DNA of 64,000 nucleotides from the IMG/VR virus record IMGVR_UViG_3300030060_005656, positions 18,761-82,760 of that record. The stretch is one strand, 5' to 3'. The position numbers and the translations under genes are program-made. The DNA comes from a virus. How positions within the stretch are numbered: the stretch's first letter is position 1; every line of letters starts with the position of its first letter. The notes beneath the pieces were generated by a model. The model was not told the DNA's origin. It saw nothing but the letters and a program-made list of their open reading frames with translations, and searched no databases. Shown in pieces: positions 4,808-64,000 of the stretch.

Positions 4808-4812
4808 TAAGA

Positions 4813-26447: not shown

Positions 26448-26882
26448 TTATTGTGGATTTTGTGCAGCTTGTACTTGTGGTTGTCCTGGACCATTATTAA
26501 TTGGTGGTTGAGCTGGGATTTTACCGTTTATCTGTTGCATAGTTTGGTTCATTTGATTTAACAATAAAGTTAAGTTTTTAACCGTATTATGTAGTTGGTC
26601 GATTCTTTCCTCAAACCTTAGGGTCTTCATAGGTGTATTTTTAAAGTGATTAATTTTACCAATTAACTCTTCGGGTGTTCTAAAATCTCTATTTGGTAAC
26701 CAAATCTCTTCTTGCATTACAATAGTGGGTGTCATCCCGATACCGGTAATCCTAACTAATTCATTCCATTCTTTTTCGTTATCTTTAGCTACTACTTCTT
26801 CGTATTCTAATTCTGCATTATTAAGTTGTTCCTTAATTCTATTACAATAATGACATGTTGGGTTTGTGTATATTTTAAACAT
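26448..26882 (-). CDS. Glutaredoxin with C-terminal helical/proline-rich extension
   Basis: A 144-residue protein. Residues 1-85 are a glutaredoxin fold: the active site is CHYC (C10, C13) in TNPTCHYCNRIKEQL, with cis-proline in MTPTIV. Residues 90-120 form a coiled coil (LHNTVKNLTLLLNQMNQTM) and the tail is Pro/Gln/Asn-rich. Phage glutaredoxins keep ribonucleotide reductase or structural thiols reduced in the cytoplasm. No reductase gene is in the window, and the abundant cysteines of the giant protein are another possible client. The helical tail is unusual for the family. Confidence 0.82.
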   Translation of the reverse strand: MFKIYTNPTCHYCNRIKEQLNNAELEYEEVVAKDNEKEWNELVRITGIGMTPTIVMQEEIWLPNRDFRTPEELIGKINHFKNTPMKTLRFEERIDQLHNTVKNLTLLLNQMNQTMQQINGKIPAQPPINNGPGQPQVQAAQNPQ

Positions 26883-34813: not shown

Positions 34814-35211
34814 GGGGATGACTGGAATTGATTGGCGTAAGTCGATTGGTGTCAGCACGTCAAGCCTGAATTAAGCTTGTAAAACTGATTCATTTTTTTA
34901 ACTGGCAAAACAATTGCTAAGTTGGCGACTTTAGGACTTGTCCATGAGGAGTCAACAGTGGCTGTAGCGTAACTAGGTTACGAGATAGCTCCATCTCTTC
35001 TAAGGAATTTAAGATTTGTGTCCTTAGTTTTTGAGGTGTCAAATAGACAAATCGAACCCATGAAGTCGGTACATGGTAAAACTACCGTCACAGACCTCTG
35101 AAATCTTGTTTATTCTAATAGGTAGGTCTTTTACAGAATAAACTAAACGTGTAGGATAGACGTTAGTTGAATGCGAACAAGACGTGGGTTCGAATCCCAC
35201 CATCTCCACCA
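34814..35211 (+). ncRNA. ssrA: Transfer-messenger RNA (tmRNA)
   Basis: A 398-nt one-piece tmRNA. The acceptor stem GGGGATG (34814-34820) pairs with CATCTCC (35201-35207), followed by an encoded ACCA. The T-arm GTGGG-TTCGAAT-CCCAC precedes it. A pseudoknot upstream of the tag is visible: CAAGC/GCTTG with TGAAT/ATTCA. Eleven bases after it comes the resume codon GGC (34904-34906), and the frame runs 22 codons to TAA (34970-34972), ending HEESTVAVA. Bacteroidota tags also begin with Gly, but usually have about 8-10 residues and end in LAA or MAA. It rescues stalled ribosomes with SmpB, which is not seen in the window. Confidence 0.95.
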
Positions 35212-40472: not shown

Positions 40473-40883
40473 TTAAAGTCTTCTAGATTTTAACCAGAAA
40501 ATTTCTCTACCAGCACGAGTTTCTAAAGCTCTTAATTTTTGTTTGGACCTTTTTAAATTTAAATCTTCAGACTTTTCTAAATCTTCCATTAAAAAAGATG
40601 TGAATTCCAGTACGTCAGCATTTAATTCTTCTACATATTGTACCCTATCTTGGAGTTGCATAATTTGTTCTTCCATTAAACCCATTATTTCTTCAGGGGA
40701 AAGAATTTGTTCTATTTCATCTTCTAACGCTTCTAAATCAGCATCCATCATTTCATCGTCTTCTAGGGTTGGGTCGTCACCACGAAGAGTAGCTAATACT
40801 TCATCGTCACCTAATTCTTGTTCTACAATTTTTTTAATAAGTCCAGTTAACTGTGCTTCTGTTAAGGTTAATTTTTTTGCCAT
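40473..40883 (-). CDS. Helical protein with capsid-targeting-like leader
   Basis: A 136-residue acidic, helical protein. The leader AKKLTLTEAQLTGLIKKIVE (residues 2-21) is followed by Q22, giving I-V-E-Q at 19-22, a prohead-protease-type site at exactly the position found in three other proteins here. The body is coiled-coil-like (LMEEQIMQLQDRVQYVEEL; LNLKRSKQKLRALETRAGRE) and ends in basic residues. An internal or core head protein is the best inference. A TATTTATA box lies 20 bases upstream. Confidence 0.62.
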   Translation of the reverse strand: MAKKLTLTEAQLTGLIKKIVEQELGDDEVLATLRGDDPTLEDDEMMDADLEALEDEIEQILSPEEIMGLMEEQIMQLQDRVQYVEELNADVLEFTSFLMEDLEKSEDLNLKRSKQKLRALETRAGREIFWLKSRRL

Positions 40884-43335: not shown

Positions 43336-43344
43336 TTAACTCAT
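43327..43344. other. 18-bp perfect palindrome joining two convergent stop codons
   Basis: ATGAGTTAATTAACTCAT, centred between the TAA of the plus-strand gene and the TAA of the minus-strand thioredoxin gene. Both proteins therefore end in Met-Ser. The stem has no loop and no U-tract, so ordinary intrinsic termination is unlikely. Confidence 0.6.
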
Positions 43345-43650
43345 GTAATATTTTAACTTTTCAGAATATACATTTTCTGGTTGTACCCCTTGTAATGTTT
43401 CCATTACATCTCCTTTTTTAAATATTTTTACACTAGGAATTCCTCTTATACCATATCTAGCCGCTACCTCTCTTTGTACATCTACATTAACTTTATATAC
43501 GTTATCTGGAAAGGTTTGAGAGAGTTTACTTATCGTTGGGGTCAACATTCTGCATGGTCCACACCATGGAGCCCAAAAATCAATTAGTACAGCTTTTTTT
43601 TCAGTATCATTTATAATTGAGTCAAATTGTTTTGTTGTTGTAATATCCAT
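43336..43650 (-). CDS. Thioredoxin
   Basis: A 104-residue thioredoxin with the canonical active site WCGPC (W29-C33) in LIDFWAPWCGPCRML, the cis-proline in GIRGIPSVKIF and full family length. It reduces protein disulfides in the cytoplasm using host thioredoxin reductase. With the glutaredoxin at 26448-26882 it gives the phage two thiol-redox proteins, notable beside its many cysteine-rich products. Confidence 0.94.
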   Translation of the reverse strand: MDITTTKQFDSIINDTEKKAVLIDFWAPWCGPCRMLTPTISKLSQTFPDNVYKVNVDVQREVAARYGIRGIPSVKIFKKGDVMETLQGVQPENVYSEKLKYYMS

Positions 43651-44914: not shown

Positions 44915-46108
44915 TTATTCTAAACCTATAAGGAAACCAAATAGGTTTGATTTTCCTGATTTAACCACCTTATCACCTTCTATAGAAGTTTTAATAATAA
45001 TAGTTTTAATCTTATCTTTTTTATCTACATTTAACATTAAATCTATAAATTGGTCTGACTGATTTTGACCTTCAACTTTCCAGTTTACAACATAATTATC
45101 AAATCCTGGGTGTCCTTTAGCTTTTAATCCTTTGTTAACAGCCATCATAAAGTTATTACCTCTATCAAAAGCTAATTTTTGGTTTTTACCTTCATTACCT
45201 TCAGCGTATCCAGTATCACCTTTACCTTGACTGTTAGGTAATTTTTCTGACCCCCAGTTAGCACTTGCACCAGCTTGTAAATTAAACACGTCTATCTCAA
45301 CATCCGCTGGGAACATTTGGAAAATCTCGTTAACAGCTTTAGCTACAAGTTTAGGGTCTGGTGTAGAATCTCCACTTTTATAATCTGTGTCATATTTTCC
45401 AGTTGCCTTATATCCTTTTTCTACAACATCTTCAGTACCTGTTTCAGCTGTTTGTTTCATACCTTTTGATAAAGAGTAGATTATTAATAACCCACCTGGG
45501 TCATTAGGTCCTTGCATAAAGTTTAAGAACCCACCATCATCCATAGTCTCTACATCATATATTTCACCGTCATTTGCATATGCTGACATATTAAAACCAT
45601 TTAAGTAGGTTACTAATGTAGTAGGTACAGTTCTGTTATTCATTGCTCTTCTACTGTCTGTATCAACCTTGTTTGGCATAACATTACCGTGTGTTGCTAT
45701 TTGTGTACCACTAAGATTAACCGGTAATGTTTTTTGGTCAACAAAAAGTTTCTGACCTTGTTCTTTAATAGCTCTTACTAATAATTTAACTCCCTTTTTT
45801 ACATTACCACCACCCATATGTTGTACTATAGCTTGTATAATATTTTGTGGTTCTAACTTTCTACCTTCACTACCTCCACCAAGAGGGAATGTATTAAATC
45901 TAGCAGATTGCATTAATGTTTGTAGTTGGTTATATCCTGGTATAGACTTAAGACCTCCCTTAAATCCTTTTTTCATTAAGTACTTGTTTATATATTCTGC
46001 AGAATCTTTTATTGTACCTTCCGCTCGTACTTCGTAAGCTTCACTAATTAAACTTAAACCCATGATTTCACGGTTTCTGTTTATCTCACTTAATATTTCT
46101 TTTTTCAT
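44915..46108 (-). CDS. Putative internal head protein with leader
   Basis: A 397-residue protein. It starts KKEILSEINRNREIMGLSL (residues 2-20) and then I-S-E-A (21-24), nearly the same leader as the 569-residue protein at 36372-38081 with an ideal T4-type cleavage site after E23. The body is Gly/Asn-rich with helices (NIIQAIVQHMGGGNVKKGVKL) and strand-like ends (IKTIIIKTSIEGDKVV). Unknown family. A TATTTATA box lies 18 bases upstream. Packaging in the head is inferred from the leader. Confidence 0.63.
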   Translation of the reverse strand: MKKEILSEINRNREIMGLSLISEAYEVRAEGTIKDSAEYINKYLMKKGFKGGLKSIPGYNQLQTLMQSARFNTFPLGGGSEGRKLEPQNIIQAIVQHMGGGNVKKGVKLLVRAIKEQGQKLFVDQKTLPVNLSGTQIATHGNVMPNKVDTDSRRAMNNRTVPTTLVTYLNGFNMSAYANDGEIYDVETMDDGGFLNFMQGPNDPGGLLIIYSLSKGMKQTAETGTEDVVEKGYKATGKYDTDYKSGDSTPDPKLVAKAVNEIFQMFPADVEIDVFNLQAGASANWGSEKLPNSQGKGDTGYAEGNEGKNQKLAFDRGNNFMMAVNKGLKAKGHPGFDNYVVNWKVEGQNQSDQFIDLMLNVDKKDKIKTIIIKTSIEGDKVVKSGKSNLFGFLIGLE

Positions 46109-46153: not shown

Positions 46154-46636
46154 TTAATTCCACAACACGTGGACTGTTTTTTCATTAAAATCTACTTCTA
46201 ATCCAGTAGGGAAAACACTGTGTGAAAATAATTCATCTGACATTTGGTCTTCGTAATGCCACTTCCCTTCTTCATCACTACTAAATCCACCCATGTCGTC
46301 TACCATTAATTCGATTTCTTTTTCTACTTCTACTTTGGTGTAATCTTCATCGTATATTTCTACCATTGCATTTATAATTACACTAGTGGTGTAAACACTC
46401 ACGTCTTTGATTCCCCAACTTCTTACATCCATATCATATCTCCATTTAACATAACAGTTTGTATATGTTACATCCATATCCTGACCACTATACTCGGTGA
46501 AATATTTTTCTAACCCGTAAAAACTAACATCTTGGACTTCAGTATTAAATGCGTTTGGGTCATCTGAATATTGTTCTTTTATTACCTTCTCAGTAATATT
46601 AACTAATTGACTTTCCTTTACGATTATTTTTTTCAT
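46154..46636 (-). CDS. Acidic protein with capsid-targeting-like leader
   Basis: A 160-residue acidic protein. The leader KKIIVKESQLVNITEKVIKE (2-21) ends in I-K-E-Q (19-22), the same position as in several other proteins. The body is beta-rich with aromatic and acidic residues (DVTYTNCYVKWRYDMDVRSW; VEVDFNEKTVHVLWN-like end). Unknown family. A TATTTATA box lies only 2 bases before the ATG. Confidence 0.62.
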   Translation of the reverse strand: MKKIIVKESQLVNITEKVIKEQYSDDPNAFNTEVQDVSFYGLEKYFTEYSGQDMDVTYTNCYVKWRYDMDVRSWGIKDVSVYTTSVIINAMVEIYDEDYTKVEVEKEIELMVDDMGGFSSDEEGKWHYEDQMSDELFSHSVFPTGLEVDFNEKTVHVLWN

Positions 46637-48638: not shown

Positions 48639-51600
48639 TTAATAATTTATATCATATATAGTTCTTTGTGTTCTTCCTCTACCTATACTATCTGGTGTTA
48701 GTGAAACCGCACAAGTACCATTTCTAACATATGGATTTAACTCTCTTAATAAATAACCTAATGGAGATTCGTAGAAAGTGTTTATCCCGATAACATTATA
48801 AAGTGGGAACCAAGTTTCATTCACATTACTACAGTGATTTTCACAATCTGTTACTGTTAATGGTATTGTAGCCGTATTTATATAACTTTCACAACACATT
48901 GGTATTGGATATAGTGAATTTGCTTGTATATCCACACCATTTACTTCACTAACTTGAGTTTGGTCACACGCCATCCATCCAGCACATCCACTATTTAAAC
49001 ACTCTTCTAAAGAGGTGAATAAACCTGGACCACCCACACCATCTACTGGTACACACGCTTGTTGGTTTTCACCTACTAATGTGTTTGTTTCTACTGTACA
49101 TTGGTAATATACCGTACCTGAAAAATCACATCCAGCTGCGTAACAGTCTTGTAGTGTTGAGTATTGTGGTGCAGCGTTACCAAAGTAAGCTAGGTAAGGG
49201 GCCGTACCATATTCTAAACACTCAGTATACGTTGGTGGATTACTTGGATTATCTACACAACTATAACCGTTTAGGGTTGCTCCTGTTAGAATAGGTGTCG
49301 TAGTTGTAATAACGTAGTCACCGTGGAATTGAGTTATTCCCATAACAAGTCCGTTTGGCATATAGTATGTCATACCATTTAGTACGTGGGTGTGATATGT
49401 CCCATTTCCACCCATGTGAGTTTCCGCACATGATGTTGTGGTGTATAATGGGTAGTAACCATTTACATCTAGGGCTGTACATGTTGTACCTATAGACATA
49501 GTATCATTACCACTTACTAAAAGACTTTTCCAACCTATCAAGGCTGAACCTTGTTCTTCGTAATTAGGGTAATATAAACATCCATCTAGAACACAAATAC
49601 CTTCAGTACCATCAGTACAATGAGTACACTCATCTCTACCTAAGTAATAACCTTTTTTAGTCATATACTCAAGTAATTCAGTACCTTCAATAAAGTCATT
49701 TATAATGTGTCTAACTCCACCTAACATTTTAAAGTCTGTGATACTTTGTAATACCTCACCATCAGACCCTACAAAATCTACAGGACCAAACGAATTAGGT
49801 ACACATTTACATTCTTTGAAACTCCAATGGTAACCTGGTATACATGATTGGGTCATTTCACAAACACATTTACATAGTGTCCAATCATAATAATAACCTG
49901 GTAAACAAGATACTGGGTGAGGACAAGGTCCACTTCCATCACATTGTACTTCTACTGTTCCTTTAGGACACACACATTGGTCAGGGGATAATGCTGGACT
50001 TAATTGAGTGATAAATCCATTTTTATCCATACAACATTTCCAACAATCATTAGCTGGACAACTATCCTGACATTGTTGTAGAGCGTCACCGTAATAAGGT
50101 GCTCCTATTGCGGTAATGTGTGTATATTGACAGAATAAACCTATACAAGGAATACAAGCTAAAGTACCTGAACCACCAGGACCGTCATCCTCAAGTTGAC
50201 AGTTATATCCTATTTTAGGACAAGCCTGGTCACAAAGAGCTGCTGTTTGGTATGGTCCTGGAGTACCATTTATTAAACCTACACATCCTGCTTGTGGTGT
50301 ACCTTGATTTAAACAATCATAATAGTGTCTATCACAACAGTTATTTGGATTATCTTTACAATCTTGTAGTGTTGGGTAACTACCTGGACTACCCGCAATA
50401 GCTCCTTGTACACAAACACAGTCACCTTGTAGTGTGCCTAATCCAGAACCACCAGGTCCAGTAGGTCCTGGTTGACAAGTCCACCAATCGTCTGGTGGTT
50501 GACAACATGGATTTGCGTTTGCTGCTAAATTACAACTAGGGAAATCACTGTAGACGTTACCTGTATTTCCAGTTCCTATTAATTCGTCACAATAACAAGG
50601 AGTTCCAAGACAGTCACAAATGTCATTGTATACTCTAATAGCCACTGGTGAAGTTAGACCAAAGTGGTAGTAGATGGCCTGAACGTATTGACTAGTAGGG
50701 TCATTTATATCAACTATATTTCCAGTACTCGGGTTTACCATACTTAATGACTGACATGCAGTTACTAAGTCTGACCAACTATCGAATTGACATCCTATAC
50801 CAGGACATTGTTGTGTAACTGGGTCGTAATTGTTTGCCGTAGGGAAAGCCGGGTTAGGATTATTCAAACTACTGTTAGGTACCGTAAAGTATGTAAGTCT
50901 TCTCAATGTATACATTCCTGGATTTGTAACAGGGTCAAATGCTTGTTCTTCACACGCAGTTGGGAATGTGTTTACACCTTGAGCTACGTCTACAACTTTA
51001 TAATTACTTACTGGAGTATATTGTAACATATTTGCTGGGTCTGAGAAATACTCAGCAGCTTTGGATATCATTAGACTAGTAGGTATGAGTGACCAATCTA
51101 TATTTAGGAATGTTGCTCCACTACAAGTATCAACATTGTTTGAACCTGGGATACATTTCCATTCTCTACAATCTGCTGTACAAGCTGACATAGAATTATA
51201 TAAACCTGTATTTGTAAGGTTAGGTACACAACCACTTTGAGTACAGTCGAAAGTTTCACCTGAACAACACGCGTCTACACATGGTTGGTAGTTAGAACTT
51301 GACCAATACCATCCACCAGTATGACCAGTACCATCTATTTCTACACAATCACATCCAGTAGGGGTACCGTAACATGGAGTTCCTTTAATTACAACTTCTC
51401 TTAAATCCGCGGCTAGTATTGTCGTAAAGTCATCATATGATGTACCAAGACTAACACTAAATCCTTGTTGTTGAGCTGCTGTAACAACATCGTCCCAAGT
51501 ATTATGTGGACCAGAATACACAAATGGTGGTGCTCCTTGTACAGATTCTATATACATACCATCCGGTGCCCACCAAGTTCCGTTTGGTGATGGACAAGTT

Positions 51601-54600
51601 TGGACTGGAGATGAACAATTTACACAATCAAATTTGTAATAAGTTATATCCGCTTGTTGCATATTACCTGTAATAGGTGGTAATAAAGGTGATTGTACCG
51701 GTGCAGTTGCTGGGGATGCAATATAACTAAGTATATCTGAAGTTAGTCCGAAGAACCATGATGGTAACTCCGTTCTTGGTGTATTATTACCACCAGTATC
51801 ACAAGAACCATAACAATCTCCATCTTCATCACAAATCCATTCTTTACAAACTTCTTCACAGTCTAATAGTGTTGGGAATGTACCATTACCACCCATTACT
51901 GGTACGCAACCTTGTATTGTACAATTAAACGTTGTAGTTGCTGATGGGTCTGGACAACAAACCGTTTCACAAGAAGCTGAAGTTGGGTATCCGTAAGTTC
52001 CTGGTATTTCTATACATCCACAAGGGTCTCCTGGACAAGTACATGTATTTAAACTATACCCTAAACTTTGTGTCACACTAAAGACTTGTGCGGCAGTCAT
52101 ATTTACAGTAACCGCAAGATTCCATGGTGGTGATTGAAGTTTACCTATAAAGTCTGCCCATGATATTGTCGAGATAACAGGATTATTAGTGTCTGTAAAT
52201 GCGTTGATTTGTTGTATGTATTCCCAACGAGCTACTCCATCTGGTATCATAACACTATTTACGTCATGACATTCCTCCCCAACACTATTATTAGATGCTG
52301 AGATAGTACCATCGGAAACATATTTCATATCACTAAAGAATGTTGTTTGGAGTCCATTCATTGGATTAGAAATATAACCAATTGGGTTAAGATTACTAAA
52401 GTACTGAGAACTTACCATTTGTTGAGGTATCTCAACCAATCTACTTCCACAGTCTACACTTGAATTTACTGCGATTGTAGTTCCTGTAACACAAGACCAA
52501 CTTGTTTCTCCAGAACAACATATTTCTTCACACATTGCTGATGTAGGGTAACCCGCTGAACCAGGTATTTCTACACAATGACATGGGTCATACGAAGGTG
52601 TTTGAGTTTGTCCAGTACAACCACACACATAAGTATTAGGTTGTGACCAAGTGTGGATTGCCTCACCAGCTGGTAATCCTAGTACATTAACAAAATAGAA
52701 TTCAGCTTTAACATTTAATTCATCATAATTATCTGAAGATGTAACCGCCATACCTGCAGGTAGTGGTGTTGAGTTAATTACTGCTGCTACGTCATTTAGT
52801 AGGTCAGCCCAATTAAACCATTGTCCTGGTGGGAAGTTTCCTCCACCAAAAGCCCAACCCATACTAAATGTTCTAGTATTTCCGTTACTTGGTCCTAAAT
52901 CTGCAACGAATGGGTCACAATCAAAGTAACCATTATTATTTAAAAACTGTGGACTACATAACTGATGTGTATAAGTCATCGGTGTTCCACCAGGACCTGT
53001 CCAAGGCATTTTTTCCCACTTCATTTCTCTAAAGTCGGTATTAAATAATCCATTAGATGGGTCTGTAATTATATCTCTTACTTGTTTTAAGTCATTAAAA
53101 TTGTAAGGTGGTGTACCATCTCCTAAAGCACCTCCATAATATGTTGTAGAAACATCTATCATAGGTGAGTAATTAGGTACAGATGCTGAACCAAAGTTAT
53201 ATACGTTACTCATACATAAAGTACATCCAGGAGCAGAACTATCACATTCACAATATTCAAAAATACACTCTATACCAACATGATTACCAAGTACATTTTC
53301 TATAGCTTGCCAGTTATCAGTGTAAGGGAAGTTATAAGGTACCCCACCAAATAAACTATTAATATGGTCAACAAAGTCTGCCCATGTAGTTTTTATAGCT
53401 GCTTGTGCTACTGTTGGTTGTGCATTAGCAATATGTGTTATTCTACAACCTATTATCTTAGCCCAGTGACCAATCACTGCTGGACATGGACTTGCTGGTA
53501 ATGGATATTGTTGACTTCCACTATCCCATTTTAAATTTTCAAATGGTGTGTTCCATAAAGCAAATCCACCAGCCGCTATATAAGATATTAGTGGTGTATA
53601 AGATAATCCTTGTACACCCACATCTACAGATGTAGCACATGTATCATTGGATACTATAGTGGTTCCTGTAACACAAGACCAACTTGTAACTGATGGACAA
53701 TCTTCATCACAAGGTATCCAATATATTTTTTCTCTTACTTGTGGGATATTACTAGCGTAGTTGTTTGAGTAGTATACCCATTCATCATAAGGATTCATAT
53801 TTGAGTTAGGCATTAGTAGGTTAACATATGTATAACAACATCTATTACCGTTAGCGTCCGCAAATATTACAACGTCACCCACTGAGTAAGTTCCAAGTGG
53901 TGACCACATACTAGCGAAGTTACCAAATGACACATTAGAATTTACTATATATTGAGTCCATTGACCTTGTGATTGGTATCCATAGAATGTTACTGAATCA
54001 CAACCAGCACAATCACAACAACCATCCCCACCGTCAATTATGTTTGTATTGGCTAAATTGTTTGCTATACAATCTGCCATGGTTGGTTCTGGGTCACATC
54101 CACTACTAACCGGTGTTTGAACTAGTTCACATTCACAACTTGATGCACAATCACCACAAACAAAATTACAGAGATTTTGACAATCTGCTAGTGTTGTGTA
54201 AGGACCAAAAGAATTTGGTGGTGTTACATTTGATGGGTAAGGTAAACAACCTAATAACTCATCACACCAATAAACATCACTACTGGAAGTGGTTCCTGTA
54301 ATATTAACACATCCATGCATCATACCATTAACTATATTGAATATGTTTGTTGCTCCGTGTACCTTATTACTTATTTGATTAACTAATGTTAATGTTTGTG
54401 CTTCTACCGGTGCAAATTGTAATGGGTTTTGTAATAACTCAATAACTCTTCTTTCTGTTGTTATACCATATATTGGTCCATTATATGGTGGAGTAAAGTA
54501 TTGGTACTGTCCTGGGAAAGCAGGTACTGGTGGTGTCCAAGTACCATAGTTAAATAAACTATCTATAGTTTCACCCGTACCAATTCCTAGTGTTGTACTA

Positions 54601-57600
54601 TTAATGTGACTTTCTTCTAATAAATTACCAGCTCCGTCAAATTTACCAACATATTGTGTTGTTCCACTACCATAAGTAATAATCATATTACCAGTTACAT
54701 TATCATACATAATGTCTCCAGTACAAGTTAGACCACTAGGTAAGTCAAATTGGTATGTAGTTGCTGCCACATTTGCTGTTATATCTACTTTGTAAACTTT
54801 ATCGTTTGCAGTTAATAATATATTAGGGTCTTCTGTTGGTGTTAAACCTCTACCAATATTCGATGAAAGTACCGAGATATTTCTGTTAAATGCGTATTGG
54901 AAATATGGGTAGTAAATTACATCGTATTCTTTAATTTCGTGTGCTGCTCCCGTGTCTGCGTATATCCATAACTTATTTTGTCTAGCCGCGATATCTATTC
55001 TTTCATACCCTGGTTCATCAAATAATTTAGTAGTTGCGTTTGTATCGAAGTCGTAGTAAAGTACACCTTCTTCTCTACCTGTAATTAAGATAGCACATTC
55101 TGGTATAGTAACACCTGAACAACAATCCCATTCACATTGTGTTTGTCCAGTTATTAAATGATAAGTACCACTATGTCCGGTACCACCAGTTAATATACAA
55201 TCACAAGGTCCTGGTGTACAATAACAAGGTCCCACCATAGGTATTAACTCATAACCACCCTCAAACGGAGTTCCCGGAACACCATTCCAAAGAATTTGAG
55301 CTACCGTATTATAGTCCATAGTTAGGTTCCATGCGTTTGGATAATATCCGTTCTGTTGTAATCCTGTATTTAACCAGTTAATTACCTCAACCCAATTATT
55401 AGCAGGACCTGAAGTACCTGGTACAGTAAATGCAGCTGAACCACTTGGTGTGTGTCGTGCCGTAACCTGATTTAAATACTTGTAAGCTCCAAGTGGTGCG
55501 TCACAATCATTAAGAGACCAACCACATCCGTTACCACAATCCCATTTATATTGGTCAAAACTAGCTCCTTGTAATCCATTAACTGGGTCACAGAAGTAAG
55601 CTAAAGCGTCAAACGGTCCTCTATTTAATGGACCATATGAAGGAGAATATTCACTTATATCTGGTAAAGTACCTAATGAAGGCATAATCGTTTTATTTGA
55701 ACACGAGTCTGTAATTGTTGAACTAGAAACACACTTCCATTCTTTACATACCGCTTCACAATCAGCTAATGCTGTTAATCCAGTATATTCTCCACTACCA
55801 TTTCCTGGGTCTATACATCCATTTATTGTACATGTGTAAGAACTTATTGATGGACAACATCCACTAACAGGGTCTAAACATTCTGGTTCTGTATTATATC
55901 CTTGTGTAAATCCACTTTCACAACAACAAACTGTATCACATAAACAAGGTACCATATCGAAAGTCCAACCACAACCTGAATACCAAGCCATTGTTGGTAT
56001 TGGTGAAGTTTGTGTTGTTATCATCGTTTCTGAACATCCAAACGTTAGTGGGTACATAGCTCCTAGTTGAGCTACATTATTATTAGTAGTTACACTATAA
56101 CCTAATAAGATTGCTGCATCTATAAATTCACCCCAAGAACCATATGGTGTATTACCGTTAATATCTCTATGTGAAACACTTAAAATACTAAATAATGGCA
56201 TCCCTGTTCCACCTGTTGCGTTTATACCCATACATGTTTCTATTGGTAATGTATATGGTAATGGATAAACTGATGTAACATCGTTAGGGTTTACAATACT
56301 TGTACCGACCATATTTACACTTCCTAACTGGAATGTAGTGGATGATAATGGAGTGTATGGGTCATAATAATGATAATCTGTTAATATTGTTTCTACTTGT
56401 CCGTATCCACCTAAATAACTTCCTATTGATGAAGAAGTAGATTGTAGTAGTGGCCACATTTGGTCTGTACTACTTGAGAATGGATATTGGATGTTAGTAC
56501 CTAGTAAAGTTCCGTACGTAAAGTCTAGACCATTCATATTTGGTCCTAGAGTAGTTCCAGTAATTTCACCTAAACTATCCCCATTAGGGTCACATGTACT
56601 AACTTCTGTTGTTACACAAGACCAGAAGTCTCCTGGTACTGGTGGGTCACAAGTCTCATCAGTGTTACATTCTGTTTGACCATCAAATCCATTAGAAGCA
56701 TTATCAGTAAAGACTAAACCTGTTATTGGTGAACTTTGAGTTACAAAGAAACATGGTAGTTGGTAACTTAACGCACCAGTTACTGGGTCTACTATTTCAC
56801 ATGTCCATCCAGTATATTCTGGACAACAACCACTTAATGGGTGTTCACATTGTGTTTCTGTAAAGTAAGTTCCACCTGTAGTGTATAATTCATAACAGAA
56901 ACAATCTTCTTCATTACAACATTTGCCTGTATCTACCACACAACCAAAGTTATTACTTCCCCAATACTGACTATCTATACTTTGACAAACTTGTAAAGCA
57001 TTTAAAGATGTTGTTAGTGTAAAGGATGCTGCGGCCGCTGTGTAGAATGCATTCCAGTTAGTATATTCTAAACCACCCGTAACACCTGGGTGAGAAATAC
57101 TCTTAACATATTCGTAAGGTAAATAAAAAGTAGGGTTAACTGGATTACCAACAGTAATAGTAATTTCTTTATAACATGATTGCCATTGGTATGCTGGATT
57201 TGTATTTGCTTGTACGTCTGCCCAAGTATAACCCACCATAGGTACATTAACACCAGAGTTATTTGTTGTATAACTACGTACCATTCTTTTGTGTCCAAAT
57301 ACACCTGTTGGGTTCCCTACTCTAAAGTAATCAACAGCTGTAAACTGGTCATTAAACGCACCTATATATGGTTTAGTATCACAAATAGGTAAATAAGTTA
57401 TACCTGATGTACAATCCCAAGAAGTAGCCGAAGTAGTTCCTGTGTCAGGACAACAAGCTGGTAATCCGGTTGTACCACTAATACAATCCGCGTAAGTAGT
57501 ATACTGACCTGTACCATCATAAAGTTCAATACACTCACATGGTTTAACTGAACAATGACATATTTCATCACAAACTTTTATAGTTTGTCCTGATTGTGCG

Positions 57601-60600
57601 TAAACATAATTGTTAACATTAGAGTAACTCATACCAGATAAAATACCTGTTGTACCAGCACCCTGCATTTGATTTATAAATAAGTTCCAAGTGTTGTAAC
57701 TAATATTCGCGTTTAATAGGGAGTAAGATACTGGTTCTATTTCGTATAATACACCACCATTTGGTCCTGCACATGCCCCACTAACATTTACTGCTGGAGT
57801 CGTAGACTCATAAGTTAATGTAGTTAGGTCTGTATTTGGTAAGTTAACTGTTAACCAATCCCAAGCATCAGTTGTAGAATTGTACTGACCTGGTAAAGTT
57901 GTTTTACCACTACAACTATCTAGTGTAGTAGCTGTTACACAACTATAAGTTATATTTTCACAACATGCTGATTCTGCTGCACCTGAACTAGTAAATGGTC
58001 CTTGTGCAGTACTAGGTATAATAACATAACCATCATCACAGAATATATCACATGGTACTTCATAACAAGTACACCATTCTGTATTTTCTTTTAATGCAAA
58101 TCCACAATTTTGTAGGGTAATAATTACACCATCAGAACCCCCAAATAAAGTACTTGAGTTCCAATTTGTCTGAGATGAACCATACGTTGTTGGACATCCT
58201 TGTGGATTTGGTATTAATGTTAATAAGTCATTCATAACACTATTCCAAGTAGTATGTGGTCCTCCAACAACTACATCAACACCTGATGTAGCATCTATTA
58301 TTTCTATAGAGTTAAGAACTTTATAATACCCTTGTGAATTTGGTGCCCAAACACCTCCAGTTATATTAGATGGATTGTTCGGTAGGTAAATGTTATTTGG
58401 TAATTGTGGTGACTCACACGTACTAGGTGGTACCTGAGTTACATCTACTGAATCTGGTACTGCTGTAAATTTGTAACTACTAAATGTACTTAAATGGTGT
58501 TGAGTTGTTGACACACTTCCAGCACCATTGCTTCCACCAAAATACATTAGTACTGTAGAAGTGTAGTAATTCTGTGTCGGATAGACTGGATTATTTGGGT
58601 TGGCCCCAGTAGGGTAATAATTATCTAGTCCGATATATTGGGTGTCTGTCTTACTATCACAAGTGTCTGCTATATAAGCTTCAGTACAATACCAGTCTAT
58701 TGAACAATTTGCCGTACATGAAGTTAAAGCCGTATATGTTGCTGCTGTATTTGGCCAAGATGTACATCCTGTTGTACCACCAGTACAATTTACTGTACAT
58801 GTCCATGACTGACATTCTGCAGTACATGCTGTCCAACCAAATATTGAACTTCCTGAACTTCCAGCTGCTGCCCCATAGAATGTACCACCAGAACCTGTTT
58901 GTTCTATACAACCATTAGCTAGTGGCCATGATTGACTTGGTGTATATGTTGTAATGTCTTCACAATTGTAAGATGTACACGCGGTAACACAACCACCAGA
59001 ACTTGTAAATGTCCCACCAGTACCTGCTTGTGTTGTACATCCTGTTGTCATACAGTTCCATGAAGTACACGCACTTTCACAATCTGCTAAAGTAGTGTAG
59101 TAAGTCGGTGTACCACCTGTTCCGTTAAATGGAACACAACCATTATATGTACATTCATAAGAATAACATTCACCAGTACATGCTGATAAAGTTAAGTGTG
59201 GGTATTGTGAAGTTTGTAATGTGGCAGCCGATACACATAAAGATAAATTAGATTGTATTGTATTTAAGAAACTAGATAAATCATTATTAAATCCATTCGT
59301 CGTATATTGTCCAAAGTTTATATTATACCCCCAACCTTTAGTATCTAATTTACCTACATTTGGTGTATAAGCATCAACCGTTAATAAATAAGGGTTACTT
59401 ACTTCTAAAGCAGTTAAATCAGCGATTGCACATAATTCTGGTACACCACCTAAAATACCACCACTAGTTAATCTACGTGGTGCGGTACCTGCTTGCCAGT
59501 TTTCTCCTTGAGCTCCCACAGTTTGATTTCCTGAATCTATAGCTGCAACTACATGTAACGCAAATAATTCGTTATCTGGTGATTGAGGTGAGAATGAAGC
59601 TGTTGGATACATATAACAATTTAATGACCCACCTGCTGTAGTTACTGTAGCGTATGTAGCAGAGTATGCTGTAAAGTCTACCTTCCATGTTGGTGTTGGT
59701 TGGTCTAATGGGTTAGATAGTGTAGCTGCAAAATTAGGTATTGCGTTATTAGGACTACCTGCATCATCTGAAGTATAAACATTATTACTATTTAAACCAT
59801 TCGATGGTCCTGATTCATCTATAAATGTAATTACTAATACATTATCGTCATGGTCTGCTGCTGGTGCTGGACCTGTTGTTGTTATTCCAGGGAATAAGAA
59901 GGTTGAGTTACCAGGAGCCATATTATCGTAAACATTCGTCATAGACATCCCACTTGCCCAATCTTTAACTAACATAGCAGTTGGATTTTGGAATATTGTT
60001 GACGTTCCAGCTGTAAATTGTGAGTGGTAAACTGAACTAGCCCAACTTAACCATCTTTCATCATTATTTAGTGTGTGATATAAACTACCTGTAAAGTTTT
60101 GGAATCCTAGGACCCAATTCTCTAAACCTGTGATAGCCTGTTGTACGGCTGTTAGGTCCATAGATGTGGTGTCGTAGTATGCGTATATTTTACTATCTGT
60201 TTCTATCGGGTTATTTAAACAACCCCACGCTATACAACTACCAGTACAAGCTGATTCTGCACTGAAAGTACCTGTCATACCAGTACCTTGTATGTCACTA
60301 CACCCACCTGTTGTACATTCATAAGATATACATGCCGCTGTACAAGCGGTTAATGCTGATATTGATGCGGTAGCGTTATAGAAAGTTCCACCTGAACCAC
60401 CACCACCTTGAGAGTTATATTGTAAACATCCTTCTACTACTACTCCAAGTACAGTAGGTGAACAATCATAAGATATACATGTTGCAGTACAAGCTGTAGC
60501 ACCCCACTCTGGGTTCCTCGCGTTAAAATAAGTTCCACCGGAACCTACTTGTGAAGTACATCCAGTATCACCACAATTATAAGAGGTACATCCACTATCA

Positions 60601-63600
60601 CAAGCAAGTGCTGTTAGGTAAGTTCCACCTGAACCAACATCTGCACTTACTTCAGTACAACCAGTAGACGTACAATCCCAAGACCTACATCCACCACTAC
60701 ATTCCCACTCGTAGAAGAAAGTACCACCTGTTCCGTATAATGGTGCGTTATATAACACACAACCACCAGTTCCAGGTATTTTACCACCTTCTCCCATGGT
60801 ACCAGTACTACAAGAATAAGATGTACATTGACCGGTACATGCTGCTAATGTAGAAAATTGTCCGTTCGAACCACTTACTACTACACAACCATTAGCGGCA
60901 CAATTCCAAGTTGTACAATCACCGGTATTTGTATAGTCTGGTGATAGATAGTCCATTCCCACCTCTAAACAATGGGTTAAACTACTATATGACCCACCTG
61001 TATATGTTTGTGGTATACATCCAGTTGGGCTTCCGTTGTATGAGGCACCTAAGCCTTCTGGACCACATTCATAAGATATACAATTTTCTGAACATGCTGT
61101 TGTACTCGTAAAGGTTCCTCCGGTTCCGTAGTTTGGTACATTCCATAAACCACATCCACCGTCTGTTATGGTACCACAAGAATAAGATACACAAGTTGCG
61201 GTACAAGACGCGGAGGTACTAAAAGTTCCACCAGTACCAGTTACTTCACTACAACCTGAAGTACCACAATTATAAGATACACAAGATGCGGTACAAGCTG
61301 CGGATGATACTATTGGTAATTGTGTTATGTCTTGGTATGTACCCGATAAATTACTTAGTTGGTAACACCCATTATCTCCACAGTTAAATGATGCACAATA
61401 ATTAGTACATGCTGTTTGTGTTGGGAATTCATATATTGAACCTGTAGTTGTACCGGTTTGTTCTATACAACCTAGGACTGTATTACACTCCCAATAGGTA
61501 CAACCTGTTTGACAATCTAATAATGTATCAAACTGAGCGTCATTACCAATCTCTGGGATACACCCGAATTGATTATCACAGTTATAACCTGAACAATTAA
61601 TCTGACAATGTGTTTCACTACTATAAGTCCCACCTGTACCACCTGGTTGTACATAACAACCACTTGCGCCACATTCCCAACTTTCACATACCAATGTACA
61701 ATCCGTATTACTACTAAATGTACCACCTGTACCATAATAAGAATAATAACTTACACCATCTGTTGATGTATATGGGAAGGTTGCTCCTGTTGGTGAATTG
61801 TGGTCTACACAACCTTGAGTAGTACATGAATAAGAGTAACAAGATGCTGTACAATCAGCTAAACAACTATATTCTCCGGTTACTGCAGTATAACATCCAT
61901 TATCACCACAATTAAATCTTGTACAACCAGTACATTCACCTAAACTAACCAATCCTTCACATAAAGTTTGTGAACTATATGGGAATTCTGCATCAATTGC
62001 GGTATGTCCTGATGTACATATAGTAGTACATGCTTGAGAAGTACCGGTCATAAATGAAGTTAAATCTGTTTCAAAAATAGTTTGCTCGTATGTGTCAAAT
62101 CTAAAATTAATTGACCAACCATATTGGTCTAATCCACCCCATGTTGGTGTTGTCCCACTCCAATAAGGATTATCGATACTGAGCACGACCATATTAAATT
62201 CACACTGAGCGTGTGTCCAAGGTTGTAAATACCCATACAAGTTGTTATCTAAAGGATATGTTGAATTGGTCCATTTACCATCTAGTGGACTATTGGTTCC
62301 ACTATGTATCGCAGCTATAGAATGTAAAGCAAAACCTCTGTTTGCACTATTACCACCAGGTTGTGTAACTGTAGGGTATAGAAAACTTCTTATATTACCT
62401 CCCGTACCACCTCCCGCGGTAGTTGCAGTAACAGCGTTATGTATTGCGAAATATCTTGCGTGGTCAGCTTTCCAGTCCGACGATGGTTCACCAGCAAAAC
62501 TACCACCATTAGCATGGTACTGAATAGATGATTCATCTTCGAATACTATAGTGATTACGTCGTCTGACGTAGATGCCGTCATTACTCCACCATAACCTTT
62601 TGTGGTTTGACCATTAGCCCACAAATAACTATAACCAGGTTCACCAGTACTTCCAGGTGCAAAACTATCATGAACAGTGTGTGTTGCATTTCCAGTATAA
62701 TTTCCAGGACTAATCCAAGAATCAAATCCTGTAGTAGGGTGGTACACCTCTCTTATTACCTCTACCGGTCTACTAGTACTATTAATCCAATATTGGCTTC
62801 CTTGTCCAAATCCCATATAACCCCATTGAGCAGGTGCATCATAAGTTATACCAGCTGCTAAGTTATTAGGGTCTGTAAGATATGACGATGGTGAATTTTC
62901 AGTAAACCTATAACCATCCATATTATAAGCTATGGTAGGGTAAACTAACCATCTTTCTGACCACCATAACATGTGATAGGTGTGTCCTGTAAATTCTAAA
63001 TGATTTTCCGTCCAATCAATAATACCTTTAATTGCGTTCTCTGTTTGAGTAGCGTCCATAGAGGTAATATCATAGTAAACATACATTACACTATCTGGAC
63101 CTATGGATAGTGGTTCACAACATTGCCAACTTATACAAGCTCCGGTACAAGCTGATAAAGTTGTATATTCGTTAAATCCTAAAGCGTTAGGACTTGTTCC
63201 TCCACTACCAGGTAGTTGTAAACAACCATTTGTGGTTCCTGATACTGCAGAGTTATAATCGTTTGGTAAAATTCCTGATGCCGCGTAACTAGCTGTTACA
63301 CATTCAAAGTGATAACATGATGCGGTACATGAGGACATTTCTAAATAAGTTCCTGTAGTTCCTGTTCCTTGGAAAGGACCATAACAACCTTGAGTAGTAC
63401 ATGAATAAGATTGACATTCTGCTGTACATGCAGATAAAGAATTAAATTGAGTGTCACCTGTTTCTTGCACACAACCATATTCACCACAAGTCCATCCTGA
63501 AGTAGTATTACATGTTTGGGTACATGCTGTCTCAGCGTCTTGAGATGTTGCGTATATCCCACCAACACCGAAAGTAAATGTTCCTTGTGGGTCTTGGTAA

Positions 63601-64000
63601 CAAGGTGTTCCTTGACCATCACAATACCATGGGTCTAGTGATGGGAAACAATTATCGTTACATTCAACTAGTGTTGTGTATGGGTACTCTACTGTCGCTG
63701 AAGTTTCAGCAGAAAGACATTGTGTTGCTGGAGTAACTACTGTACCTATTGAAGAATTTAAAGCGGCACCTAATATTGCTGAGTCTGTAGCTAAAAGGCT
63801 TACATTAATACCCCAACCTTTATCTTGTAATCCACCCCACGTTGGGTTACCTGCTATCCAAGCTGTGTTAACTGAACCTCCATAAAATGGACCAGCGTTT
63901 GTAGTCCACATGTCCGAACCCTGTTGACCACCCGATGTTGATACATCACTAGGTGACCAGTAACAAAGAACTTCACCTGGACAACTTAAGTTTTCAACAC
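48639..64000 (-). CDS. Giant cysteine-rich repeat protein, 5' end beyond the window
   Basis: An open frame of at least 5,119 codons; it stays open past the first ATG at 63911 to the right edge, so the true start is outside. Three regions can be seen. The N-terminal third has about 25 cysteine modules ([YWF]-x-C-x(3-4)-G-C ... G-T-G-G-T-[FY] ... C-x(3)-C) interrupted by vWA-like domains starting DITSMD (about 63,070) and DTTSMD (about 60,180). The middle has ten modules around a [TNS]-W-x-[ED] core, each closing with C-x-C and C-C pairs. A beta-propeller-like stretch lies near 55,110-54,290. No membrane helix is obvious. A tail-fibre or surface adhesin is the best guess. Confidence 0.85.
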   Translation of the reverse strand, partial: VENLSCPGEVLCYWSPSDVSTSGGQQGSDMWTTNAGPFYGGSVNTAWIAGNPTWGGLQDKGWGINVSLLATDSAILGAALNSSIGTVVTPATQCLSAETSATVEYPYTTLVECNDNCFPSLDPWYCDGQGTPCYQDPQGTFTFGVGGIYATSQDAETACTQTCNTTSGWTCGEYGCVQETGDTQFNSLSACTAECQSYSCTTQGCYGPFQGTGTTGTYLEMSSCTASCYHFECVTASYAASGILPNDYNSAVSGTTNGCLQLPGSGGTSPNALGFNEYTTLSACTGACISWQCCEPLSIGPDSVMYVYYDITSMDATQTENAIKGIIDWTENHLEFTGHTYHMLWWSERWLVYPTIAYNMDGYRFTENSPSSYLTDPNNLAAGITYDAPAQWGYMGFGQGSQYWINSTSRPVEVIREVYHPTTGFDSWISPGNYTGNATHTVHDSFAPGSTGEPGYSYLWANGQTTKGYGGVMTASTSDDVITIVFEDESSIQYHANGGSFAGEPSSDWKADHARYFAIHNAVTATTAGGGTGGNIRSFLYPTVTQPGGNSANRGFALHSIAAIHSGTNSPLDGKWTNSTYPLDNNLYGYLQPWTHAQCEFNMVVLSIDNPYWSGTTPTWGGLDQYGWSINFRFDTYEQTIFETDLTSFMTGTSQACTTICTSGHTAIDAEFPYSSQTLCEGLVSLGECTGCTRFNCGDNGCYTAVTGEYSCLADCTASCYSYSCTTQGCVDHNSPTGATFPYTSTDGVSYYSYYGTGGTFSSNTDCTLVCESWECGASGCYVQPGGTGGTYSSETHCQINCSGYNCDNQFGCIPEIGNDAQFDTLLDCQTGCTYWECNTVLGCIEQTGTTTGSIYEFPTQTACTNYCASFNCGDNGCYQLSNLSGTYQDITQLPIVSSAACTASCVSYNCGTSGCSEVTGTGGTFSTSASCTATCVSYSCGTITDGGCGLWNVPNYGTGGTFTSTTACSENCISYECGPEGLGASYNGSPTGCIPQTYTGGSYSSLTHCLEVGMDYLSPDYTNTGDCTTWNCAANGCVVVSGSNGQFSTLAACTGQCTSYSCSTGTMGEGGKIPGTGGCVLYNAPLYGTGGTFFYEWECSGGCRSWDCTSTGCTEVSADVGSGGTYLTALACDSGCTSYNCGDTGCTSQVGSGGTYFNARNPEWGATACTATCISYDCSPTVLGVVVEGCLQYNSQGGGGSGGTFYNATASISALTACTAACISYECTTGGCSDIQGTGMTGTFSAESACTGSCIAWGCLNNPIETDSKIYAYYDTTSMDLTAVQQAITGLENWVLGFQNFTGSLYHTLNNDERWLSWASSVYHSQFTAGTSTIFQNPTAMLVKDWASGMSMTNVYDNMAPGNSTFLFPGITTTGPAPAADHDDNVLVITFIDESGPSNGLNSNNVYTSDDAGSPNNAIPNFAATLSNPLDQPTPTWKVDFTAYSATYATVTTAGGSLNCYMYPTASFSPQSPDNELFALHVVAAIDSGNQTVGAQGENWQAGTAPRRLTSGGILGGVPELCAIADLTALEVSNPYLLTVDAYTPNVGKLDTKGWGYNINFGQYTTNGFNNDLSSFLNTIQSNLSLCVSAATLQTSQYPHLTLSACTGECYSYECTYNGCVPFNGTGGTPTYYTTLADCESACTSWNCMTTGCTTQAGTGGTFTSSGGCVTACTSYNCEDITTYTPSQSWPLANGCIEQTGSGGTFYGAAAGSSGSSIFGWTACTAECQSWTCTVNCTGGTTGCTSWPNTAATYTALTSCTANCSIDWYCTEAYIADTCDSKTDTQYIGLDNYYPTGANPNNPVYPTQNYYTSTVLMYFGGSNGAGSVSTTQHHLSTFSSYKFTAVPDSVDVTQVPPSTCESPQLPNNIYLPNNPSNITGGVWAPNSQGYYKVLNSIEIIDATSGVDVVVGGPHTTWNSVMNDLLTLIPNPQGCPTTYGSSQTNWNSSTLFGGSDGVIITLQNCGFALKENTEWCTCYEVPCDIFCDDGYVIIPSTAQGPFTSSGAAESACCENITYSCVTATTLDSCSGKTTLPGQYNSTTDAWDWLTVNLPNTDLTTLTYESTTPAVNVSGACAGPNGGVLYEIEPVSYSLLNANISYNTWNLFINQMQGAGTTGILSGMSYSNVNNYVYAQSGQTIKVCDEICHCSVKPCECIELYDGTGQYTTYADCISGTTGLPACCPDTGTTSATSWDCTSGITYLPICDTKPYIGAFNDQFTAVDYFRVGNPTGVFGHKRMVRSYTTNNSGVNVPMVGYTWADVQANTNPAYQWQSCYKEITITVGNPVNPTFYLPYEYVKSISHPGVTGGLEYTNWNAFYTAAAASFTLTTSLNALQVCQSIDSQYWGSNNFGCVVDTGKCCNEEDCFCYELYTTGGTYFTETQCEHPLSGCCPEYTGWTCEIVDPVTGALSYQLPCFFVTQSSPITGLVFTDNASNGFDGQTECNTDETCDPPVPGDFWSCVTTEVSTCDPNGDSLGEITGTTLGPNMNGLDFTYGTLLGTNIQYPFSSSTDQMWPLLQSTSSSIGSYLGGYGQVETILTDYHYYDPYTPLSSTTFQLGSVNMVGTSIVNPNDVTSVYPLPYTLPIETCMGINATGGTGMPLFSILSVSHRDINGNTPYGSWGEFIDAAILLGYSVTTNNNVAQLGAMYPLTFGCSETMITTQTSPIPTMAWYSGCGWTFDMVPCLCDTVCCCESGFTQGYNTEPECLDPVSGCCPSISSYTCTINGCIDPGNGSGEYTGLTALADCEAVCKEWKCVSSSTITDSCSNKTIMPSLGTLPDISEYSPSYGPLNRGPFDALAYFCDPVNGLQGASFDQYKWDCGNGCGWSLNDCDAPLGAYKYLNQVTARHTPSGSAAFTVPGTSGPANNWVEVINWLNTGLQQNGYYPNAWNLTMDYNTVAQILWNGVPGTPFEGGYELIPMVGPCYCTPGPCDCILTGGTGHSGTYHLITGQTQCEWDCCSGVTIPECAILITGREEGVLYYDFDTNATTKLFDEPGYERIDIAARQNKLWIYADTGAAHEIKEYDVIYYPYFQYAFNRNISVLSSNIGRGLTPTEDPNILLTANDKVYKVDITANVAATTYQFDLPSGLTCTGDIMYDNVTGNMIITYGSGTTQYVGKFDGAGNLLEESHINSTTLGIGTGETIDSLFNYGTWTPPVPAFPGQYQYFTPPYNGPIYGITTERRVIELLQNPLQFAPVEAQTLTLVNQISNKVHGATNIFNIVNGMMHGCVNITGTTSSSDVYWCDELLGCLPYPSNVTPPNSFGPYTTLADCQNLCNFVCGDCASSCECELVQTPVSSGCDPEPTMADCIANNLANTNIIDGGDGCCDCAGCDSVTFYGYQSQGQWTQYIVNSNVSFGNFASMWSPLGTYSVGDVVIFADANGNRCCYTYVNLLMPNSNMNPYDEWVYYSNNYASNIPQVREKIYWIPCDEDCPSVTSWSCVTGTTIVSNDTCATSVDVGVQGLSYTPLISYIAAGGFALWNTPFENLKWDSGSQQYPLPASPCPAVIGHWAKIIGCRITHIANAQPTVAQAAIKTTWADFVDHINSLFGGVPYNFPYTDNWQAIENVLGNHVGIECIFEYCECDSSAPGCTLCMSNVYNFGSASVPNYSPMIDVSTTYYGGALGDGTPPYNFNDLKQVRDIITDPSNGLFNTDFREMKWEKMPWTGPGGTPMTYTHQLCSPQFLNNNGYFDCDPFVADLGPSNGNTRTFSMGWAFGGGNFPPGQWFNWADLLNDVAAVINSTPLPAGMAVTSSDNYDELNVKAEFYFVNVLGLPAGEAIHTWSQPNTYVCGCTGQTQTPSYDPCHCVEIPGSAGYPTSAMCEEICCSGETSWSCVTGTTIAVNSSVDCGSRLVEIPQQMVSSQYFSNLNPIGYISNPMNGLQTTFFSDMKYVSDGTISASNNSVGEECHDVNSVMIPDGVARWEYIQQINAFTDTNNPVISTISWADFIGKLQSPPWNLAVTVNMTAAQVFSVTQSLGYSLNTCTCPGDPCGCIEIPGTYGYPTSASCETVCCPDPSATTTFNCTIQGCVPVMGGNGTFPTLLDCEEVCKEWICDEDGDCYGSCDTGGNNTPRTELPSWFFGLTSDILSYIASPATAPVQSPLLPPITGNMQQADITYYKFDCVNCSSPVQTCPSPNGTWWAPDGMYIESVQGAPPFVYSGPHNTWDDVVTAAQQQGFSVSLGTSYDDFTTILAADLREVVIKGTPCYGTPTGCDCVEIDGTGHTGGWYWSSSNYQPCVDACCSGETFDCTQSGCVPNLTNTGLYNSMSACTADCREWKCIPGSNNVDTCSGATFLNIDWSLIPTSLMISKAAEYFSDPANMLQYTPVSNYKVVDVAQGVNTFPTACEEQAFDPVTNPGMYTLRRLTYFTVPNSSLNNPNPAFPTANNYDPVTQQCPGIGCQFDSWSDLVTACQSLSMVNPSTGNIVDINDPTSQYVQAIYYHFGLTSPVAIRVYNDICDCLGTPCYCDELIGTGNTGNVYSDFPSCNLAANANPCCQPPDDWWTCQPGPTGPGGSGLGTLQGDCVCVQGAIAGSPGSYPTLQDCKDNPNNCCDRHYYDCLNQGTPQAGCVGLINGTPGPYQTAALCDQACPKIGYNCQLEDDGPGGSGTLACIPCIGLFCQYTHITAIGAPYYGDALQQCQDSCPANDCWKCCMDKNGFITQLSPALSPDQCVCPKGTVEVQCDGSGPCPHPVSCLPGYYYDWTLCKCVCEMTQSCIPGYHWSFKECKCVPNSFGPVDFVGSDGEVLQSITDFKMLGGVRHIINDFIEGTELLEYMTKKGYYLGRDECTHCTDGTEGICVLDGCLYYPNYEEQGSALIGWKSLLVSGNDTMSIGTTCTALDVNGYYPLYTTTSCAETHMGGNGTYHTHVLNGMTYYMPNGLVMGITQFHGDYVITTTTPILTGATLNGYSCVDNPSNPPTYTECLEYGTAPYLAYFGNAAPQYSTLQDCYAAGCDFSGTVYYQCTVETNTLVGENQQACVPVDGVGGPGLFTSLEECLNSGCAGWMACDQTQVSEVNGVDIQANSLYPIPMCCESYINTATIPLTVTDCENHCSNVNETWFPLYNVIGINTFYESPLGYLLRELNPYVRNGTCAVSLTPDSIGRGRTQRTIYDINY
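50520..58690 (-). repeat. Ten tandem modules in the giant gene
   Basis: Ten diverged copies of a module of very roughly 130-250 residues. Each has a cysteine-containing opening (such as SCVTGTTI or KCVSSSTITDSC), a variable centre, a T-W-x-[DE]-type helix (HTTWNSVMNDLL, YNTWNLFINQM, KTTWADFVDHI, ISWADFIGKL, HNTWDDVVTAA, FDSWSDLVTAC and others), and a closing C-x-C-x-E-[IL]-x-G-T ... C-C. The β-propeller-like stretch sits between copies. The copies share the scheme rather than long identical DNA, so the duplications are old. Confidence 0.75.
58690..63900 (-). repeat. Cysteine-module array with vWA-like insertions in the giant gene
   Basis: About 25 copies of a 30-55-residue module with four conserved cysteines (FNCGDNGC, YSCTTQGC, WECGASGC, YNCGTSGC and similar openings, then G-T-G-G-T-F and C-T-x-x-C). 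Two complete vWA-like units interrupt it, and the end of a third (WGGLQDKGWGINV) lies at the right edge. The equivalent ends WGGLDQYGWSINF and KGWGYNINF in the complete units show the homology. Confidence 0.78.

Follow-up and report, generated by a model that had tools for sequence, protein, structure and literature searches.

A giant cysteine-rich modular protein of a T4-like virus, a candidate virion surface fibre or adhesin

Very long, modular proteins without signal peptide are known from the fibres and baseplates of T4-type phages (gp10-gp12, gp34-gp37 region). The giant protein studied here resembles them in these traits and by a related module that related phages encode in their gp25/gp6 baseplate operon, while it differs in that it has no PHROG fibre match, contains about 300 cysteines and is encoded outside the baseplate operon. 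A second group for comparison are the vWA adhesins (integrin beta, VWF A1). They share with its alpha/beta module the predicted alternating alpha/beta topology, an Asp-x-[ST]-Ser after strand 1 and weak Foldseek matches, but the module shows neither a Pfam VWA match nor a significant fold match, and the MIDAS DxSxS is not intact. The best structural neighbour of the module is protein A0A7S9SUN3 of virus NIOZ-UU157 (Foldseek E 1.2e-3, probability 1.0), and A0A516LFR9 is a further one among viral models (E 1.4e-3, probability 0.98); both are uncharacterised, with 16% and 14% identity to the module, respectively. Within the literature open without subscription, no description of such a protein was found. 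The proposed kind of protein, a phage surface fibre or adhesin, is already known, while the cysteine richness and the set of modules are new.

The giant open reading frame and its relatives

We analysed a window of 64,000 nucleotides that forms the right-hand end (G000:18761-82760) of an 82,760-bp IMG/VR record. On its minus strand, ORF analysis identified one stop-free frame of 5,119 codons (window 48639-63998, more than 15,000 letters), while the plus-strand reading of the same stretch contains hundreds of stops. Since the frame reaches the contig end (63998), the N-terminus and the 5' end of the gene are missing. The earliest ATG (63911) would provide 5,090 aa, and no start is forced before the contig end. 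The gene and its downstream neighbour are located as follows.

48639..63998, minus strand: giant open reading frame, 5,119 codons, 313 Cys, N-terminus lost at the contig end; colinear relative in L003
48246..48518, minus strand: 90-aa gene directly downstream of the giant gene, 82-91% identical in all four contigs, used as synteny marker

A scan of IMG/VR returned one contig with a close relative, i.e., L003 (G001). Its protein (4,905 aa, N-terminus also cut) is colinear with the window protein at 71% aligned identity. The two show a dN/dS of about 0.27 (dS 0.8, dN 0.22) and keep 298/301 aligned cysteines (99%). Given the colinear relative, this ratio and the cysteine retention, a chance frame is excluded, i.e., the giant ORF is a real, conserved gene under purifying selection. 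The original prediction of a frame of more than 15 kb with at least 5,119 codons, open at the window edge, is thus confirmed by both the ORF analysis and the colinear relative; the minus strand and the coincidence of this edge with the end of the record are added here.

A scan with TerL yielded 75 loci, and 17 records were then searched with the giant protein. Among these, G005 (210,568 bp) and G008 (99,619 bp) carry two adjacent genes at the syntenic locus: gene a (2,948/2,955 aa with 146/141 Cys for G005/G008) and gene b (1,740/1,593 aa with 90/86 Cys). Window residues 169-2405 match gene a, and residues 2932-3219, 4647-4809 and 4946-5115 match the second half of gene b, while the first ~700 residues of gene b are without counterpart in the window protein. 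Following this match pattern, a and b are fused in the window gene, which lacks the N-terminal half of b and carries added modules. One part of the lineage has therefore turned the two neighbouring genes into a single one with additional modules. The expectation of a single gene therefore holds for the window and G001 but not for G005 and G008. A frame broken in relatives had been named as a refutation; here, no degradation is seen, and the frame is naturally two genes in 2/4 contigs (G005, G008).

Separate genes in G005 and G008, together with the fact that both fused contigs terminate within the gene, might also be expected if an assembly chimera had artificially joined two genes. We give this explanation next to no credence, since the same fusion and colinear modules are present in two contigs at 71% protein identity and neither fused frame contains stops. 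The locus is syntenic, with the same flanking genes, in all four contigs reaching it (window, G001, G005, G008), and fused and split gene forms are both available for comparison. The 90-aa downstream gene, used as a query, revealed no further contig carrying the locus, and none of the scans provided a contig that supplies the missing N-terminus.

The middle region of the protein shows in places 28-60% identity per 100 aa, compared to 83-100% for most flanking genes. Such fast turnover would fit a role in host contact; some small genes near the giant gene evolve equally fast. There was no sign of a diversity-generating retroelement, i.e., no reverse transcriptase scored above cut-off.

In G005, gene b contains a Hint/intein domain (L142:6174-6593; PT-HINT E 1.1e-23, Intein_splicing above cut-off) within its propeller-like region, which is absent from gene b of G008. 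Its end reads HN with a Lys after it, which differs from a canonical intein. When GenBank phages were searched by tblastn with the G005 gene b product, the matches listed fall on this insert.

Module anatomy and predicted fold

In the window protein, we distinguish about 25-30 repeats with four cysteines each, three or more alpha/beta modules, a region resembling a propeller and a C-terminus that is conserved. Respective coordinates are listed in protein order; "vWA-like" refers to predicted topology only.

63702..63848, minus strand: first alpha/beta (vWA-like) module, C-terminal piece only, aa 51-99 (profile match, E 1.5e-6)
62001..63119, minus strand: second alpha/beta (vWA-like) module, aa 294-666 (profile match; itself a member of the profile's alignment)
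60222..62000, minus strand: main tandem four-cysteine repeat block, aa 667-1259, 64 Cys (repeat profile)
59217..60221, minus strand: third alpha/beta (vWA-like) module, aa 1260-1594 (profile; AlphaFold2 core pLDDT 70-85, pTM 0.69)
58629..59216, minus strand: additional four-cysteine repeats, aa 1595-1790 (repeat profile)
54324..55205, minus strand: propeller-like region, aa 2932-3225 (homologous to gene b of G005 and G008)
50499..54098, minus strand: diverged region, aa 3301-4500 (28-75% identity per 100 aa to G001)
48642..49163, minus strand: conserved C-terminal domain, aa 4946-5119 (alignment with G001 and gene b of G005 and G008)

Since the alpha/beta module at the contig end is partial, the protein continues beyond the contig; with an N-terminal domain as in gene a of G005 (about 530 aa), its full length would come close to 6,000 aa. 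The four-cysteine repeat unit spans ~30-40 residues with the pattern of about [SW][YWF]xC-x3-GC-x(8-16)-G[GT]x[YF]-x5-C-x3-C, and the window protein has 34 matches to its profile, full or partial, mostly before residue 1790. A "Kunitz-like" label, assigned to the repeat by eye, was dropped for want of Pfam support. The propeller-like region is 42% identical to its counterpart in gene b of G008, with its fold assigned by inspection only. Within the diverged region, the alignment to G001 shows gaps and some modules are not alignable, while the final 25 residues of the C-terminal domain are identical in G001 and the domain is 40-46% identical to the ends of the two gene b products.

Copies homologous to the second alpha/beta module are found in L142, L143 and L149-L155. 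For one alpha/beta module (335 aa, 15 aligned sequences), AlphaFold2 provided a model with pTM 0.69 and mean pLDDT 57.5, in which strands and helices are predicted to alternate. Compared to the PDB using Foldseek, this model is without significant match (best E 0.17); integrin beta3, VWF A1 and ANTXR2 are among the near-top entries at E >0.1, alongside Rossmann dehydrogenases. Pfam VWA (PF00092) had zero matches in six records, while 12/14 control genomes were positive. The copies in alignment A4 read D-x-[ST]-S-x with M, I, L, T or N at the fifth position; since this is never Ser, the MIDAS DxSxS is not intact. For a 701-aa segment combining repeats and an alpha/beta module, AlphaFold2 provided only a low-confidence model (pLDDT 34, pTM 0.24).

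Pfam and PHROGs had zero matches for any third of the giant protein, and so had the PDB sequences when searched with a 971-aa N-terminal piece and the alpha/beta profile. No relatives were found in GTDB genomes with two alignments, a search by short peptide patterns that could miss distant relatives. In GenBank phages, tblastn returned no relatives either, whether queried with the repeat block, the alpha/beta module, the C-terminus or the second giant Cys-rich protein described below. The alpha/beta module was also not found in five named phage records, including Tenacibaculum phage PTm1. The four-cysteine repeat and the alpha/beta module represent module families that, as searched, have no counterpart in Pfam, PHROGs, GTDB genomes or GenBank phages.

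Composition and cysteine pattern

The 313 cysteines make up 6.1% of the giant protein, compared to a mean of 1.0% in the other proteins of the contig. In turn, K+R amount to 2.2% compared to 12.3% in the remaining proteins. The available part has a mass of 547 kDa, a pI of about 4.05 and 1.2% His. Codon GC at third positions equals that of the genome (0.185), while it is higher at first and second positions (0.479); the G+C bulge of the gene thus stems from the amino acids encoded and not from any obvious foreign origin. A Cys-specific avoidance of TGC was ruled out, as every NGC codon is avoided.

Compared to local shuffles, cysteine spacings of 4, 5, 9, 28, 33 and 37 are over-represented. 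The ordered cysteine pairs noticed initially are therefore recovered in the form of a four-cysteine repeat with enriched spacings. CxxC (spacing 3), on the other hand, is rarer than in local shuffles (9 vs. 26, z -3.6), which disfavours zinc or redox motifs. This bears on the initial suggestion that the protein might bind metals. In such a reading, its cysteines would bind zinc or iron-sulfur and the protein would work inside the cell. The reducing cytoplasm in which phage proteins fold as well as some CC and CxC pairs would agree with such a function; given the CxxC depletion, the low His content and no match to any Pfam zinc or Fe-S family, we consider it highly doubtful.

We also compared cysteine retention with that of ordinary orthologs. 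In 13 other window/G001 ortholog pairs (73% identity), 22/25 cysteines are kept (88%), i.e., fewer than in the giant protein (Fisher p 0.007). For the giant proteins (a/b) of G005 and G008, a more distant pair, the respective values are 218/233 (93-94%) compared to 36/39 (92%) in ordinary orthologs. Since this second pair shows no excess over controls, the conservation of cysteines by itself argues only modestly for disulfides. The fixed spacing, together with conservation above background between the window and G001 though without excess in G005/G008, suggests a disulfide-rich repeat protein, with the disulfides themselves being predicted.

No signal peptide was found in the a and b products of G005 and G008 by a crude hydropathy measure (0.1-0.7 for the first 40 residues vs. 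2.0-2.7 for two controls), and the giant proteins have no membrane segment. Since these relatives have complete N-termini, they point to synthesis in the cytoplasm. Thioredoxin and glutaredoxin genes are usual in T4-like phages, and both are present as conserved genes here (43336-43650 and 26448-26882, respectively). It had been suggested that they might handle the giant protein, but nothing ties either of them to it. Sulfhydryl oxidase (Erv1/ALR) and DsbA-type Thioredoxin_4 genes were not found in eight related records, which are fragments.

Phage context and candidate role

The contig encodes T4-like major capsid, portal and TerL proteins, and its source is an uncultured T4-like virus, the bacterial host of which is probably marine and a member of the Bacteroidota. 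The host assignment is based on the lipoprotein/signal-peptide style of the neighbours and on Flavobacterium phages among the nearest TerL matches, which reach 27-29% identity only. The giant gene is located among head-type and small late genes, outside the baseplate operon; in G005 and G008, the locus comes after a lipoprotein gene.

For the alpha/beta module and one other segment, homologs are nevertheless found inside this operon. The G005 operon with the baseplate wedge genes gp6 and gp25 (PHROGs) also encodes a second giant Cys-rich protein (2,883 aa, 228 Cys) that has a segment in common with the window protein. In L149, L150, L152 and L153, the alpha/beta module is part of a protein of 2,931-3,101 aa. 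Over its first 700 residues, this protein has 39-42% identity to the product of G005 gene 49477, a member of the above operon; the neighbours are orthologous to the operon as well (L149, L150, L153). The module is supported by a tblastn E of 1e-20 (L149) and by profile E values of about 1e-78 to 1e-83 from a profile built including those rows. Unlike the window protein, these proteins have ~2% Cys only and a baseplate-protein N-terminus. Its occurrence in giant proteins of baseplate-operon type ties the alpha/beta module to the tail/baseplate region.

We consider it fairly probable that the giant protein is a very long, modular surface fibre or adhesin of the virion that contacts the host, with cysteines that stay reduced in the cytoplasm and become oxidised once the cell has lysed. 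This reading is based on the T4-type capsid, portal and TerL context, the conserved syntenic gene with a dN/dS of about 0.27 and its cysteine retention, furthermore on the four-cysteine repeats, CxxC depletion, pI of 4, low K+R and lack of a hydrophobic N-terminus, as well as on the segments in common with baseplate-operon giant proteins and the fast-changing middle region. Weighing against it are the location outside the baseplate/tail operon, the lack of any family, PHROG or PDB hit for the pieces tried and of a significant PDB match by Foldseek, and the cysteine retention at control level in G005/G008. The same holds for the late-promoter-like motif, which precedes the giant genes of relatives as a one-mismatch copy only; the promoter of the window gene lies off the contig.

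The original prediction had pointed out the paradox of a disulfide-type phage tail protein made in a reducing cytoplasm. Given the T4-like context, the lack of a signal peptide, the CxxC depletion and the module shared with the baseplate operon, a structural or adhesive phage protein of disulfide type is the best reading, on indirect evidence. Here, we infer location in the virion, adhesion, the timing of expression and of oxidation as well as a C-terminal anchor. In the simplest scenario, the protein would be synthesised late in the reducing cytoplasm without signal peptide and would exit the cell at lysis as an appendage of the virion. Its cysteines could then pair as disulfides in oxygenated seawater and stiffen the fibre, while the alpha/beta modules may serve as binding modules and the conserved C-terminus may anchor the protein. 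More tentatively, it could belong to a phage-specific lineage of giant extracellular-matrix-like adhesins (about 5,000-6,000 aa or more) with four-cysteine repeats, integrin-like alpha/beta modules and a propeller, which are reduced inside the cell and become locked by hundreds of disulfides only as lysis brings the virions into contact with seawater oxygen, with oxidation as a maturation switch. Should the protein be a virion component, few phage proteins would be as long or as rich in cysteine, and the question would arise by what means a phage can fold and assemble it, given its hundreds of disulfides and a cytoplasm that is reducing.

The gene position may also be read differently. Head genes are located upstream of the locus, the genes around it have, on inspection, T4-type capsid-targeting-like N-termini, and the accessible part of the literature mentions head-fibre-like appendages for a Tenacibaculum jumbo phage. 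A head-associated fibre or decoration instead of a tail fibre is nevertheless rather improbable, since the giant proteins themselves are without capsid-targeting-like N-terminus and share modules with baseplate-operon proteins, not with head proteins. Equally unlikely is a non-virion protein (e.g., matrix, decoy or aggregation factor) that would be set free at lysis or exposed on the infected cell and act outside the virion once oxidised. In its favour, the gene stands apart from the tail operon and, in G005/G008, after a lipoprotein gene, and the composition and cysteines are of extracellular type; but without signal peptide or membrane segment its release would require lysis, and the other occurrences of the alpha/beta module are in a baseplate-operon protein.

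Further observations concern the phage genomes in general. By eye, similar amphipathic N-termini ending near [IL]xE are seen for the genes at 10809-11294, 31066-32166, 36372-38081, 40473-40883, 44915-46108 and 46154-46636. They resemble the T4 capsid-targeting sequences cut by gp21, and a gp21-like protease is seemingly encoded at 15388-16080 (by eye). The predicted scaffold-region protein (13690-15270) contains about seven copies of a KEGGAKKGDQSATHRDY repeat. A DnaK-type chaperone (26956-28830) and a Clp-type ATPase (29009-31045) form a neighbouring pair conserved across relatives, and a phage-encoded tmRNA with tag AKLATLGLVHEESTVAVA is located at 34814-35211.

The motif TATTTATA, often followed by ATAAAA, is found 10-30 bases before start codons, e.g., of portal (17373-19217, minus strand) and TerL (19262-21007, minus strand). 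It precedes 16/76 ORFs in G000 (1.7 expected) and 37/182 in G005 (4.0 expected) and resembles a late promoter or else a start region of unusual type. Finally, the tetranucleotide GATC is missing altogether from G000, G001, G003, G005 and G008, which are up to 210 kb long, and GCGC is far below expectation in these genomes (observed/expected 0.05-0.27), a scarcity that we take as restriction-site avoidance.
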